In this document: one piece after another, positions 19,885 to 26,663 of the stretch
Numbering within the stretch: the stretch's first letter is position 1
Layout of the letters: every line of letters begins with the position of its first letter
Assembly (NCBI RefSeq): GCF_900128465.1
Contig: NZ_LT635868.1
Coordinates: forward strand, 456,649 to 511,628
Direction of reading: 5' to 3'
Length of the DNA stretch: 54,980 bases
Origin: Actinomyces bouchesdurhonensis
GTDB taxonomy: Bacteria; Actinomycetota; Actinomycetes; Actinomycetales; Actinomycetaceae
Translations under genes and position numbers: made by a program
Notes under the pieces: model-generated
What the model saw: the letters and a program-made list of their open reading frames with translations, nothing else
Databases searched by the model: none
Told to the model about the DNA's origin: nothing

Positions 19885-22264
19885 CTACTCCTGGAGCGAA
19901 CGAGCAAACTGGTGCGCGTAGAAGATACGTTGAGTGATCTCAATGAGGGCAGCCGAACAGGCACCGACGCACAGGATAACGAGCCACTCGTATCCGTTGG
20001 GCGCGACCATCGAGAAGAAGTCACGCACCGGAGCAATGAGCACGCCGCCGACCGTCGCGGAGATGACGCTCGCCAGCAGGACCCACTTCCACAGCGACAG
20101 GGGCCGCGAAGTGATCACGAGCAGCCAGATGGCGCCTAGCATGAGGGACAGGATCGCGGCCGTCGACTCACGCGCCTGGGGCGGGCCATCCACAATGCCG
20201 AAGGCGACAAGGGCAGTAGTCGCCAAGATGACGCCCGTCGGCATCGCGAGCGACAGGGTGCGCCTCAGGAATCCGGGCACGTAGCGGCGTGGGTTGGGCC
20301 ACAGCGCCAGGAAGAAGGCGGGGATCCCGATCGTCAGTGAGTCAATGTAGCTGAACTGGCGGGGCAGGAACGGATAGCGCCAACCGACCAGGGCGGTGAC
20401 GATCACCAGCACCGCCGCGTACGTGGTCTTGGCGAGGAACAGCGAGGATACGCGCTCCATGTTCGCGATGATGCGTCGCCCCTCCGACAAGACCCCGGGC
20501 AGGACCGAAAACTTCGAGTCAACGAGCACGATCTGTGCGACCGCCTTCGTGGCCTGCGTGCCGTTACCCATCGCGATGCCAAGGTCGGCGTCCTTGAGTG
20601 CCAGGGCATCGTTCACGCCGTCGCCCGTCATGGCCACGCAGTGATCGCGCGCCTGCAGGGCACCCACCATGGCCCGCTTCTGCTCGGGCGTCACGCGCCC
20701 AAACACGTCGTGACTCTCGATCGCGTCGGTGAACGCCTCCGAGGTCAGGTCCTCGGGAAGGTCGCGCGCGTCCATGAGGCGAGCGGGTGAACCGTCGGGT
20801 GCCGTCAAGCCCGCCTGGGCTGCCAGCGCGCCGACCGTCGTCGGGTTGTCGCCCGAAATGACGCGCACGTGCACGCCCTGCGAGCGGAAGTAGTCCAGCG
20901 TCTCGGCCGCGTCCTCGCGCAGGTCCTCCTCCAGGACCACGAGGGCGGCCACCGCCCGACGCACGGGCAGCTCGTCGTCGACCACGGCCTCGTCCGCACT
21001 CACCAGCGCCACCACGCGGGACCCCCCAGCGGCGATGGCGCGCACCCGCTCCAGGAGAACCGCGTTCGTCGCCACGGCCTCGTCGATAACGAACTCGGGC
21101 GCACCCAGGATCCAGGACTCGCGTCCGGTCCCCCACGCGCTCCACTTGCGGGCCGAGGAGAAGGGAACGGACCACTCGATGCGCTCGCTCGCTCCCGAGC
21201 GCGCATCCTCGCCCACATGCGCCCAGATCGCCTCGGCGGTCGCGTTCGTCCGGTCACTGGCAGCGCTCGCGAGGGCGCGCAGCACCGCCTCCGTGTCCCC
21301 CGAAACCACGTCGACCCCGCGAACCCGGATGCCACCCGTCGTCAGCGTGCCCGTCTTATCCAGGCACAGGCAATCGACGCGGGCCAGCACCTCGACGGCC
21401 GGAAGCTCCTGAACGAGGACGCCCCGGCGTGCCAGCGTCGCCGATCCGATCGCGAAATTCATCGACGTGAGCAGCACCAGGCCCTGGGGGATCATGCCGA
21501 TGACGGAGGCGACCGACAAGACAAGAGCCTCGCGCCAATCCCCGCCCGATCCTCCGGCAATACGGTTCTGCGAGTAAAAGGTCATCGCAACAACCGGGAG
21601 CAACATGACGGAGACGACCTGCAGCACGCGGTTGATCGACACCTGGATCTCGGACACGGTACGGGTGAAGGCGCGCGCCTGCTCGGACAGGCCCTGTGCG
21701 TACACGCGCTCGCCGACCGCCGTGGCCACCATGCAGCCCGAACCGGCCACCACGCTGGTGCCCGCCAGGAGCTGGTCGCCCTCTTTCTTCTTGACGGGGT
21801 GCGACTCGCCGGTGAGCAGCGACTCGTCGATCTCGAGGCCCGCGGAGGCCAGGACCGTCCCGTCCACGCTCACCTGATCGCCGAGCGTCAGCTCGATAAC
21901 GTCGTCGAGCACGACGTCGCGAGCCGGAATGACCGACAAGGTTCCATCGCGCAGGACGCTCGCCTGCGGGGCGTCCACAATCGCCAGCGAATCCAAGGTG
22001 CGTTTCGCGCGCAGCTCGGACACGATGCCGATGACCGCGTTGATCACCATAACTCCGCCGAAGATGCCGTCGCGCAGGTCACCGAACAACAGCACGATGA
22101 TCGACGCGCCCACGATGATCGCGTTAAAGAGCGTCAGCACGTTCTCTCGAACGATAGACGCCACGGAACGCGACGTGCGGTCCTTCACGCGGTTGACCGC
22201 GCCGCGGGCGACGCGCTCCGCGACCTCTGCCGCACTCAGGCCGCGCTCGCCGAGGCGCGTCACG

Positions 22265-22275
<11 letters not shown>
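19885..22275 (-). CDS. cation-translocating P-type ATPase (CtpE/YoaB-like)
   Basis: Membrane metal pump of about 796 aa. Visible landmarks: TM1-2, actuator LLTGESHPV, TM4 motif GMIPQGLVLLTS, phosphorylation site CLDKTGTLT, hinge MTGDGVNDALALKDADLG and four to six C-terminal helices. It lacks N-terminal metal-binding Cys domains and so belongs with the P2-like group that includes mycobacterial CtpE (Ca2+ uptake) and firmicute YoaB (Mn2+ export). The GTG at 22275 is chosen because AGGGGG lies six bases upstream; two ATGs slightly upstream lack spacing. It overlaps terC and is third in an operon behind a yybP-ykoY riboswitch, so Mn2+ export is the best inference; Ca2+ transport is the alternative. 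Confidence 0.92.
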
Positions 22276-23263
<988 letters not shown>

Positions 23264-23303: not shown

Positions 23304-24305
23304 TCAGGCGGCGCTGTCGTCGCTTCCACGGCGAACACGAGACGCGGCGAGCGAAGCTGCGACCGTGATCATGATCGTGACCACGATGAATCCGAGCGAG
23401 AAAGCGATCGACGGCTCGGGGACCGTCGTGATCTCGTGACCGCCGTTAATGAAGGGCAGCTCATTGGTGTGCAGCGCGTGGTTGATGAGCTTGAAGCCAA
23501 TGAACCCGAGAATCGCGGCGAGGCCGTAGTGCAGGAACACGATGCGGTCGAGCAGGCCGTCGATGAGGAAATAGAGCTGACGCAGCCCCAGCAGCGAGAA
23601 CGCGTTGGCGGCGAACACCAGGTAGGCCTCGGAGGTCAGCGAGTAGATCGCGGGGATCGAATCGACGGCAAACATGACGTCGGCGGTACCGATCGCGATG
23701 ACGCACAGCAGCATCGGCGTGATATACGTGCGTCCACCGTGGCGGTACAGCATGCGCGAGCCGATGAAACCGTCGGTGACGGGCACGACCTTCGACACCC
23801 AGCGCACGATCGACGGCGGGCGGTAGTCCTCGTCCTCCTCGTCGCCGCCGATGCCCTCACGAACCTGACTGATTGCGGTCCACATGAGCCACGCGCCGAA
23901 GAGGTAGAACACCCACGAGAAGTTCTCGATGAGCGCGGCGCCCGCGAGAATGAAGATGAGGCGCAGCACCAGCGCGATGACGATGCCCGCCAGCAGGACC
24001 TCCTGCTGATTCTTGCGGGGCACGCGGAAAGTCGACAGGATAATGACAAAGACAAAGAGGTTGTCAATGCTTAGCGCCTTCTCGGTGATGTAGCCGCCCA
24101 GGTATTCCTGTCCGTATTGCGGCCCCCAGAGCGCCCACACGATGCCGCCAAAAATCAGGGCGATCGCGATGTAGGCGATGGACCACCAGGTCGCTTCCTT
24201 GAGCGTTGGTTCGTGGGGGGTGCGGACGTGGCCGACGATGTCGACGACGATCATGGTCACGATGATGCCGGCCAGGACGATCCAGGCGAGCGCGTGCACG
24301 TGCAT
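23304..24305 (-). CDS. TerC-family membrane protein, paralogue A (riboswitch-controlled)
   Basis: First gene of the metal-export operon; 333 aa, about eight to nine helices. Acidic TerC motifs are KALSIDNLFVFVI and MFAVDSIPAIYS. ATG at 24305 follows GGAGG after eight spacer bases; the longer open frame to 24419 covers the riboswitch and is an artefact. Its ribosome binding site is the 3' arm of a perfect 10-bp hairpin, and the other arm is also the 3' strand of the riboswitch P1 helix. Translation should thus depend on the riboswitch state. Confidence 0.93.
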   Translation of the reverse strand: MHVHALAWIVLAGIIVTMIVVDIVGHVRTPHEPTLKEATWWSIAYIAIALIFGGIVWALWGPQYGQEYLGGYITEKALSIDNLFVFVIILSTFRVPRKNQQEVLLAGIVIALVLRLIFILAGAALIENFSWVFYLFGAWLMWTAISQVREGIGGDEEDEDYRPPSIVRWVSKVVPVTDGFIGSRMLYRHGGRTYITPMLLCVIAIGTADVMFAVDSIPAIYSLTSEAYLVFAANAFSLLGLRQLYFLIDGLLDRIVFLHYGLAAILGFIGFKLINHALHTNELPFINGGHEITTVPEPSIAFSLGFIVVTIMITVAASLAASRVRRGSDDSAA

Positions 24306-24313
24306 ACGTGGGG

Positions 24314-24340
24314 CCTCCGGTACGAGTCGGGTACCGGAGG
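24314..24340 (-). promoter_or_regulatory. expression platform: RBS-masking hairpin of terC
   Basis: A perfect 10-bp hairpin (24340-24331 with 24323-24314) places the terC GGAGG in its 3' arm. Its 5' arm, CCTCCGGTAC, contains the P1 3' strand of the aptamer, so the two helices exclude each other: ligand-bound P1 should free the ribosome site. Confidence 0.8.
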
Positions 24341-24443
24341 TCTCCTCCCGCCAGTCATTCCTGGCCGGTGACGCCGGAGGCCGCGCCGCGTGGGCGGGCC
24401 GTCGTGATGACGACGCCACTGTTGGTGGGAGTACTCCCCTCCG
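24335..24443 (-). ncRNA. yybP-ykoY (Mn2+) riboswitch aptamer
   Basis: Read on the minus strand, the leader of terC shows the conserved signature of the yybP-ykoY class in order: P1 5' strand CGGAGG (24443-24438), loop motif GGGGAGTA (24439-24432), CGTCATCACG (24412-24403), CACCGG (24370-24365) and the closing GAGACCTCC (24344-24336) that contains the P1 3' strand CCTCCG. This class binds Mn2+ at the junction of two loops and commonly controls terC-like and P-type ATPase genes, exactly the genes that follow. No clear promoter -35 was found; a TAGACT lies just upstream (about 24457-24462). The identification is from motif matching by eye, not from a covariance search. Confidence 0.85.
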
Positions 24444-24581
24444 CTAACACTTCTAGTCTAGTCAGACACAGCGACGGGCGCGCTCACCCAGGTAAGTGGC
24501 GTCTGTCGCTCACCGAATCGTGGGCCACGGGGACGAGGCCGCCGCGTGCTCGCGTGAGCCTGCCGACGGCGTCTGGTCGGC

Positions 24582-26663
24582 TCAGTGGGCGCGCTTCATG
24601 GCGCGCAGTTCCTTCTTGAGATCCTCGATTTCGTCGCGTAGGCGCGCCGCGACCTCGAACTGGAGGTGCTGGGCGGCGGTCATCATCTGGGCAGACAGCT
24701 CCTCGATGAGTTCGGCAAGCTCAGCCTCCGCGCGCTGACCAGGATTCGAGACGGCAGGCGTCGCAGCCGCACCTCGGTCGCGCGCGCTCTTCTCCTTGCG
24801 GTACCCGCCCTCGAGGAGGGTCTGCGTGTCAACCTGCTCGCGGGCGAGCATGTCGGTGACGTCCGAGATCTTCTTACGCAGCGGCTGCGGGTCGATGCCG
24901 TGCTCCTTGTTGTAGGCGATCTGGATCTCGCGGCGACGCATCGTCTCGGAGATGGCCTCGTTCATGGAGTCCGTCATGTTGTCCGCGTACATGTGGACTT
25001 CGCCGGACACGTTTCGTGCGGCGCGACCGATCGTCTGGATGAGCGAGCGGGTCGAGCGCAGGAAGCCTTCCTTGTCGGCGTCGAGGATGGACACGAGGGA
25101 GACCTCGGGCAGGTCCAGGCCCTCGCGCAGCAGGTTGATGCCCACGAGCACGTCGAAGGTACCCAGGCGCAGTTCGCGCAGCAGCTCGACGCGGCGCAGC
25201 GTGTCGACGTCGGAGTGCAGGTACTCGACTTTGACGCCGCGCTCGGCCAGGTAGGTCGTGAGCTCCTCGGCCATCTTCTTCGTGAGCGTGGTGACAAGGA
25301 CGCGCTCGTCTCGTTCGACGCGCAGGCGCACCTGTTCGAGGAGATCGTCGATCTGCCCCTCGGTGGGCTTGACGACGACGAGCGGATCGACCAGGCCCGT
25401 CGGGCGGATGATCTGCTCGACCACCCCGTCGGAGCGCTCAAGCTCGTAGGGGCCGGGCGTCGCGGACAGGTAGACGGTCTGGCCGATGCGCGCCGTGAAC
25501 TCGTCCCACTTGAGGGGGCGGTTGTCCATCGCGGAGGGCAGACGAAACCCATAGTCGACGAGGGTGCGCTTACGCGACATGTCACCCTCGAACATCGCGC
25601 CGATCTGCGGGACGGTCACGTGCGACTCATCGATGATGAGCAGGAAGTCGTCGGGGAAGTAGTCCAGCAGCGTGTGCGGCGGCGTGCCGGGTCCGCGCCC
25701 GTCGATGTGACGCGAGTAGTTTTCCACGCCCGAACACGACCCGATCTCCTTGAGCATCTCCAGGTCGAAGGTCGTGCGCATGCGCAGGCGCTGTTCCTCG
25801 AGGAGCTTGTTCTGGCCGCGGAACCACGCGAGCCGATCATCCAGCTCTTCTTCGATGGAGGCGATCGCCTTTTTCATGCGTTCCTCGCCGGCCACATAGT
25901 GCGAGGCCGGGAACAGGTAGGTGTGGTCGACCTGGTCGATCACGTCACCAGTGAGCGGGTGTAGCACCGCGAGGGAATCAATCTCGTCACCGAACATCTC
26001 AATGCGGATCGCGAGCTCCTCGTAGACGGGGATGATCTCGATCGTGTCGCCGCGCACGCGGAACGTGCCGCGCGTGAAGGCCATGTCGTTGCGCACGTAC
26101 TGCATGGCGACGAAGCGCCGCAGCAGGGTATCGCGGTCGATAATCATGCCGCGGCTCAGCTCGATCATGCGCGCCACGTACTCCTCGGGGGTGCCGAGGC
26201 CGTAGATGCAGGACACGGAGGAGACGACGACCGTGTCGCGGCGGGTGAGCAGGGAGTTCGTGGCGCTGTGCCGCAGTCGCTCGACCTCATCGTTGATCGA
26301 GGAATCCTTCTCGATGAACGTGTCCGTCTGGGGGACGTAGGCCTCGGGCTGGTAGTAGTCGTAGTAGGAGACGAAGTACTCGACGGCGTTATTGGGCAGC
26401 AGCTCGCGGAACTCGGCCGCAAGCTGCGCGGCGAGCGTCTTGTTGGGTTCCAGGACCAGCGCGGGACGCTGAAGCTCTTCGATGAGCCAGGCGGTGGTCG
26501 CGCTCTTGCCCGTGCCAGTGGCACCCATGAGGACGACGTCCTGCTCGCCGTCGCGAATGCGAGCGGCCAGCTCACGGATCGCCTTGGGCTGGTCGCCCGA
26601 CGGCGTGTAGGGGGAGATGACCTCGAAGGGCTTGTCCTGGCGGATGACGGGGGTTTCGCTCAC
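24582..26663 (-). CDS. uvrB: UvrB, excinuclease ABC subunit B
   Basis: DNA helicase-like damage-verifying subunit of nucleotide excision repair. The 693-aa protein has Walker [16 protein letters not shown] (about 42-56), the beta-hairpin region [14 protein letters not shown], helicase motif [12 protein letters not shown] and a C-terminal UVR domain ([20 protein letters not shown]) that pairs with UvrC. The GTG at 26663 directly follows GGGGA, closer than usual; TAGCGT six bases upstream might act as a -10 for a nearly leaderless message. It follows coaE by 94 bases, and the terC riboswitch region lies downstream. Confidence 0.97.

Follow-up and report, generated by a model that had tools for sequence, protein, structure and literature searches.

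A very probable translational Mn2+ (yybP-ykoY) riboswitch in the leader of a terC gene of Actinomyces bouchesdurhonensis

The closest described systems to the RNA leader presented here belong to the yybP-ykoY class of riboswitches. In E. coli, alx and mntP are both described as being governed by Mn2+-responsive riboswitches, and that of mntP as a translational ON design (PMC9603457). The aptamers of L. lactis yoaB and X. oryzae yebN are described with a P1.1-L1-P1.2 leg and with an adenosine in L3 (A41 in L. lactis, A48 in X. oryzae) that contacts Mn2+, and the yebN switch is described as acting via an antiterminator (PMC6754395). In their crystal structures, both aptamers form a four-way junction with a P2 helix. 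According to a review, the aptamer of S. pneumoniae mgtA is a canonical member of the class with a three-way junction (PMC9495176). This riboswitch precedes a gene for a Mn2+/Ca2+ ATPase, and since P2 is reported to be absent from it, P2 is not a defining feature of the class. The class is already known in Actinobacteria, because the leader of C. glutamicum cg2157 (terC) was listed as an Rfam yybP-ykoY element in 2013, with a score of 49.13 bits at that time (PMC3890552). A literature search on yybP-ykoY together with Actinomyces returned work on ANTAR RNAs only, and one on riboswitch together with Schaalia gave no title on a TerC or Mn2+ riboswitch among those listed. In the following, the leader of a terC gene of A. 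bouchesdurhonensis is compared with these systems, and it is very probably a Mn2+ (yybP-ykoY) riboswitch that turns translation of terC on.

The window, that is, the whole stretch of DNA analysed, is 54,980 nt long, and the leader elements, the -10 box and the terC and ATPase genes described below are on its minus strand. The leader is located within the 276 nt separating the ATG of a terC/alx gene, terC1, from a gene at 24582-26663 that we take to be uvrB-like. terC1 (23304-24305) encodes a product of 333 aa, which matches TerC in a Pfam search (165 bits) and R_switched_Alx, TIGR03718, in an NCBIfam search (363 bits, cut-off 246), so that the initial annotation named its target gene correctly as terC-like. 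The open frame of terC1 reaches further upstream, up to a GTG that lies within the leader (24419). The ATG at 24305-24303 is taken as the start because GGAGG (24314-24318) lies 8 nt before it and the conserved leader is upstream of it. A second terC/alx gene found by the NCBIfam search, terC2 (22265-23263), begins 40 nt downstream of terC1, and no leader of its own was found, the leader model described below (R1) giving a single match in this genome at E <= 0.1. A P-type cation ATPase gene (19885-22290; Pfam and NCBIfam) overlaps terC2 by 26 nt and is the probable third gene of the operon. The order terC1-terC2-ATPase is also kept in four close relatives (L137, L157, L167 and L174), which suggests a metal-export operon under one riboswitch. 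On the upstream side, a candidate -10 box, TAGACT, is found at 24455-24460. A TANNNT motif is present within a 22-nt box just ahead of P1.1 in 107/112 leaders, against 21% of shuffled boxes. From the position of this box, transcription would start near 24448-24450. Because the box directly precedes P1.1, the leader is probably about the entire 5' UTR.

In the initial annotation, four strings were named as hallmark blocks of the class, and all of them are in place on the minus strand: GGGGAGTA at 24439-24432, CGTCATCACG at 24412-24403, CACCGG at 24370-24365 and GAGACCTCC at 24344-24336. CACCGG does not deserve that rank: it varies among relatives and spans the 3' end of P3.1, the junction and the initial base of P4. 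The P1 helix proposed at the same time, CGGAGG (24438-24443) with CCTCCG (24335-24340), is borne out by position and by covariation, and corresponds to P1.1. The letters of its 5' strand are identical to those of the Shine-Dalgarno arm, and its 3' strand is the shared switch strand discussed below. Next to P1.1, the internal loop L1 consists of GGAGTA (24432-24437), a part of GGGGAGTA, which is invariant in 15/15 aligned leaders, and GAGA (24341-24344), of which AGA is invariant in 15/15. L1 thus carries GGGGAGUA on its 5' side and GAGACC on its 3' side and is flanked by P1.1 and by P1.2, a covarying helix of CTCCC (24427-24431) and GGGAG (24345-24349). P3.1 is formed by GTGGCGTC (24412-24419) and GGCGTCAC (24368-24375), and in 85 sequences 6/8 of its pairs show changes on both sides. 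The 5' strand of L3, GTCATCACGAC (24401-24411), contains a GTCA invariant in 15/15 leaders, and its 3' motif CGG (24374-24376) is equally invariant (15/15), with GG starting the 3' strand of P3.1. The P4 hairpin GCCAG/CTGGC occupies 24350-24365, and 4/4 of its modelled pairs have changes on both sides. In the RNA form, these elements are P1.1 CGGAGG/CCUCCG, L1 GGAGUA/GAGA, P1.2 CUCCC/GGGAG, P3.1 GUGGCGUC/GGCGUCAC, L3 GUCAUCACGAC with CGG, and P4 GCCAG/CUGGC. In shuffling of the window leader, 1/200 sequences folds as well (z -3.5), so that the fold exceeds chance.

Only 7 nt (ACCAACA, 24426-24420) separate P1.2 from P3.1, and neither P2 nor a four-way junction is present in the leader, so that it has a three-way junction. 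In this respect it resembles S. pneumoniae mgtA, a likeness drawn by description only, and differs from the crystal structures of yoaB and yebN, with which it shares the P1.1-L1-P1.2 leg and the L3 adenosine. The adenosine of the class that contacts Mn2+ is kept in P3. We equate A24408 (the A of GUCA) with A41 and A48, a placement of our own made partly through the L. lactis sequence. CG(T/A)CA is found in 105/112 leaders, and by eye the remaining 7 have CGCCA (5) or GGACA (2).

TerC is encoded in 118/121 genomes of the family, and GGGAGTA occurs in the TerC leader of 30/30 fetched family loci. The TerC set comprised these 30 loci and 99 further regions; in the genus of the window, 7 TerC genes that are second copies were excluded. 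MAFFT with RNAalifold on the 30 leaders recovered part of the fold only. In an alignment of 15 leaders (A1), the P1.1-P1.2-P3.1-P4 structure was written by hand with the published aptamer in mind, P3.2 being omitted since its closing pairs differ between subgroups. In A1, 93.6% of the cells are paired and both partners have changed in 13/22 pairs, where shuffles give 6.6, for helices that had been picked on the same 15 rows before the pairs were counted. None of 500 shuffles reaches the pair count, and sliding the partners abolishes the pairing. A covariance model, R1, was built from the 15 leaders of A1, all of them TerC leaders. In its own genome the window leader scores 96.2 bits (E 6.4e-20) with this model, of which it is itself a part. 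R1 matches 84/99 of the further family TerC upstream regions in addition to the window. In the resulting 85 leaders, in an alignment fitted to the model, 95.4% of the cells are paired, 18/22 pairs changed on both sides and covariation is 0.536 versus 0.180; P1.1, P1.2, P3.1 and P4 all covary. R1 has no match in 15/99 regions, among which are one leader lying beyond the fetched 330 nt (L195; G083 1716707-1716844) and one second TerC gene (L194).

On a wider scale, R1 has a match in 109/121 family genomes (E <= 0.1), a number that includes at least one genome (G020, E 0.072) whose sole match is away from TerC, and in 40/198 genomes of the phylum (E <= 0.01). At the best-scoring R1 loci of the family and class scans, TerC lies downstream on the same strand in 59/59 cases, 29 of them outside the family. 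When named genomes were scanned with a sequence pattern, 55 stretches were obtained, their sources including Actinomyces, Schaalia, Georgenia and Nocardioides, and 54 of the 55 are followed by TerC, the exception being a stretch of 292 bases. The leader suggests a mode of TerC/Alx regulation across Actinomycetes, Schaalia and Actinomyces included.

The link to the known class comes from E. coli. R1 finds the leader of alx, an experimentally validated member, at 32.2 bits (E 6.6e-6; L277 6374-6501), with the match ending 79 nt before alx. This homology, together with the covarying helices, upholds the earlier assignment to the yybP-ykoY class. No R1 match was obtained for E. coli mntP at E <= 10. 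Between alx and the window leader, L1 is identical (GGGGAGUA) and L3 almost so (UCGUCAUUACG versus UCGUCAUCACG, and also GUGAGACCUU versus GGAGACCUC), whereas P4 and the platform sequence differ, and a response to pH is known for alx. Like the leader in the window, that of alx controls an Alx/TerC protein, and it is described as Mn2+-responsive (PMC9603457). By this homology, Mn2+ would be the ligand of the window leader, and a response to Mn2+ would be expected from it.

A search with the Rfam model RF00080 had been proposed in the initial annotation as a check, with a missing match counting as refutation, and it gave nothing: RF00080 (Rfam 15) has no match in the window at its cut-off, nor at E <= 10 in a 401-base stretch around the leader or in the whole genome. 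Pseudomon-groES (18.3 bits) and sR-tMet (16.1 bits), each with a cut-off of 50, appeared in the 401-base stretch and were taken as chance matches. E. coli alx likewise goes unreported by RF00080 when a 301-base stretch is searched at E <= 10, and mntP of E. coli K-12, at 41.6 bits, stays below the cut-off of 45. RF00080 exceeds its cut-off in 2/14 control genomes. C. glutamicum, whose cg2157 leader is likened to ours by its gene and its Rfam listing, is among the control genomes with a current match (E <= 10), which is absent under stricter filters. The printed structure line of RF00080 contains no P1 pairs. In 296 genomes of the class, no locus is over the cut-off and 36 genomes have any match at E <= 1, compared with 168 genomes matched by R1, a simple lineage model, at E <= 0.1. 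Three RF00080 rows (L009, L016 and L005) were rejected as leaders, since they appear to be coding stretches. Because the validated alx is missed too, the negative result is unsound as a refutation. RF00080 is a poor detector here, given the unreported alx, the sub-cut-off mntP and the 0/296 genomes over cut-off, and its score is treated as that of a detector, not as a feature defining the class. Annotation by RF00080 alone therefore misses such switches, and the model seems to need rebuilding. Judged by its sequence, the leader is ordinary for this known class, looks functional and is overlooked by the standard model. It is doubtful that the TerC leaders of actinomycetes are a separate branch of the class that spans the phylum, missed by the standard model and marked by the lack of P2, a GUCAUCAC loop and a Shine-Dalgarno mimic as the 5' strand of P1.1, with a metal affinity or pH dependence of its own.

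Leaders of this type also precede genes other than terC. Nine loci that are the strongest sub-cut-off places of RF00080 (L001 and L115-L122) are found by R1 at 20.6 to 60.5 bits. Among them, L001 precedes a CDF gene (best NCBIfam match MntE, below cut-off), L115 and L116 precede Na/Ca exchangers, and L117 and L120 precede genes of GDT1, which we take to be the UPF0016 family. Eleven R1 loci of the phylum were tested: five precede TerC, four a P-type ATPase (L281, L282, L285 and L288; best NCBIfam match of PMR1 type, below cut-off) and one an M50 peptidase, while L286 is at a contig edge. Leaders are thus found before genes of Mn homeostasis, namely TerC/Alx and, among the relatives, GDT1, CDF and P-type ATPases. 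These genes also bear on the question of whether the fold responds to something other than Mn2+ alone, such as Mn2+ combined with alkaline pH, or a different divalent ion, for example Ca2+. E. coli alx is described as responding to both Mn2+ and high pH (PMC9603457), the S. pneumoniae mgtA RNA is said in a review to bind Ca2+ (PMC9495176), and the Na/Ca exchangers and the ATPases of PMR1-calcium type, the latter matched below cut-off, stand behind related leaders. However, the Mn2+-contacting adenosine is kept, most of the downstream genes are TerC genes, the remainder including GDT1, CDF and P-type ATPase genes, and Mn efflux is attributed to the CDF, UPF0016 and P-type ATPase families (PMC13274385), which makes such a signal rather unlikely.

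Some further variation was seen among the leaders of these other genes. Before GDT1-like genes (L117, L118, L119 and L122), loop 3 reads GUCGACA(U/C)ACUG, compared with GUCGUCAUCACG in TerC leaders, so that, as far as the letters tell, there are two flavours of loop 3 inside the actinobacterial lineage. Some of the P-type ATPase leaders have CCTTCGG/CCGAAGG-like hairpins near the start codon. At L287 (1501-2827), a leader of the R1 type precedes the gene of an M50 peptidase that carries a CBS domain, which is not a usual gene for a Mn2+ riboswitch to control.

Downstream of the aptamer, the 3' strand of P1.1 has a second possible partner. The initial annotation had this strand double as the 5' arm of a perfect 10-bp hairpin containing GGAGG, and the sequence confirms this: the anti-Shine-Dalgarno hairpin CCTCCGGTAC/GTACCGGAGG (24314-24340) has arms at 24340-24331 and 24323-24314, with a loop of 7 nt. 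The Shine-Dalgarno sequence is thus hidden by the very strand that a ligand-bound aptamer would hold. The mutually exclusive arrangement of P1.1 and the GGAGG-hiding hairpin is conserved. When the first 42 nt of the leader tails were folded, 99/114 leaders had five or more of their initial seven nucleotides paired downstream, versus 38% of shuffles; 15/114 fail, including L228, L230 and L239, whose tails begin 3 nt early and were scored as failures. A motif resembling a Shine-Dalgarno sequence pairs with the shared switch strand in 93/114 leaders, a count made without a shuffle control. Counting without gaps (7 of 8 nt complementary), 74/112 leaders have the arm versus 12.8%, and P1.1 and the hairpin are each possible in 72/112, the set of 112 excluding two leaders without the loop-1 string. 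In 74/74 cases a start codon that is in frame with TerC lies 2-15 nt past the arm, compared with 18/148 in the two other frames.

The proposed mechanism, which agrees with that of the initial annotation and is the best-supported reading, is as follows. A transcript beginning at about 24448 would start with the Mn2+ (yybP-ykoY) aptamer. In it, P1.1 leads through the internal loop L1 to P1.2, and P1.2 to a three-way junction from which P3, carrying L3, and P4 branch off. At low Mn2+, CCUCCG, the 3' strand of P1.1, would quit the aptamer and join the 10-bp hairpin with GUACCGGAGG, and masking of the terC Shine-Dalgarno sequence by this hairpin would result in the OFF state. Mn2+ bound between L1 and L3 would hold P1.1 together and block the full hairpin; GGAGG would be free and terC translated, probably with terC2 and the P-type ATPase, giving the ON state. 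In energy predictions for a 172-nt fragment, the OFF fold has -83.5 kcal/mol and the aptamer with P1.1 enforced has -73.0 kcal/mol, so that OFF is favoured by 10.5, and even with P1.1 enforced the predicted pairing of GGAGG remains at 0.76-0.96, partly with the rest of the hairpin and partly with coding sequence. An equilibrium model without tertiary contacts therefore predicts a leader that is always OFF. Switching would have to draw on the tertiary energy that Mn2+ docking supplies and on the order in which the RNA is transcribed.

The same aptamer could have its main effect on transcription, with untranslated RNA being ended by Rho in the leader or in early terC. Rho-dependent control is reported for the riboswitch leader of E. 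coli mntP (PMC11647493), and the hairpin could couple effects on translation and transcription. In the window, an intrinsic terminator was looked for and rejected, the hairpin being followed by CCCCACGTATG and not by a T-run. The conserved combination of a Shine-Dalgarno-blocking hairpin with an in-frame start (74/74) points instead to translation as the primary step, and primary control through Rho is quite unlikely. A fixed hairpin that dampens translation, or an RNA thermometer, either one free of ligand, would suit the high predicted stability of the hairpin alone (-17.6 kcal/mol) but leaves unexplained the covarying P1.1, P1.2, P3.1 and P4, the invariant loop letters and the match to alx, and is extremely improbable. 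Among the relatives, one TerC copy (L275) has only the leader end, GGGAGAGACCTCCGATCG...CGATCGG, upstream of it; this is apparently a decayed riboswitch of which the hairpin remains.
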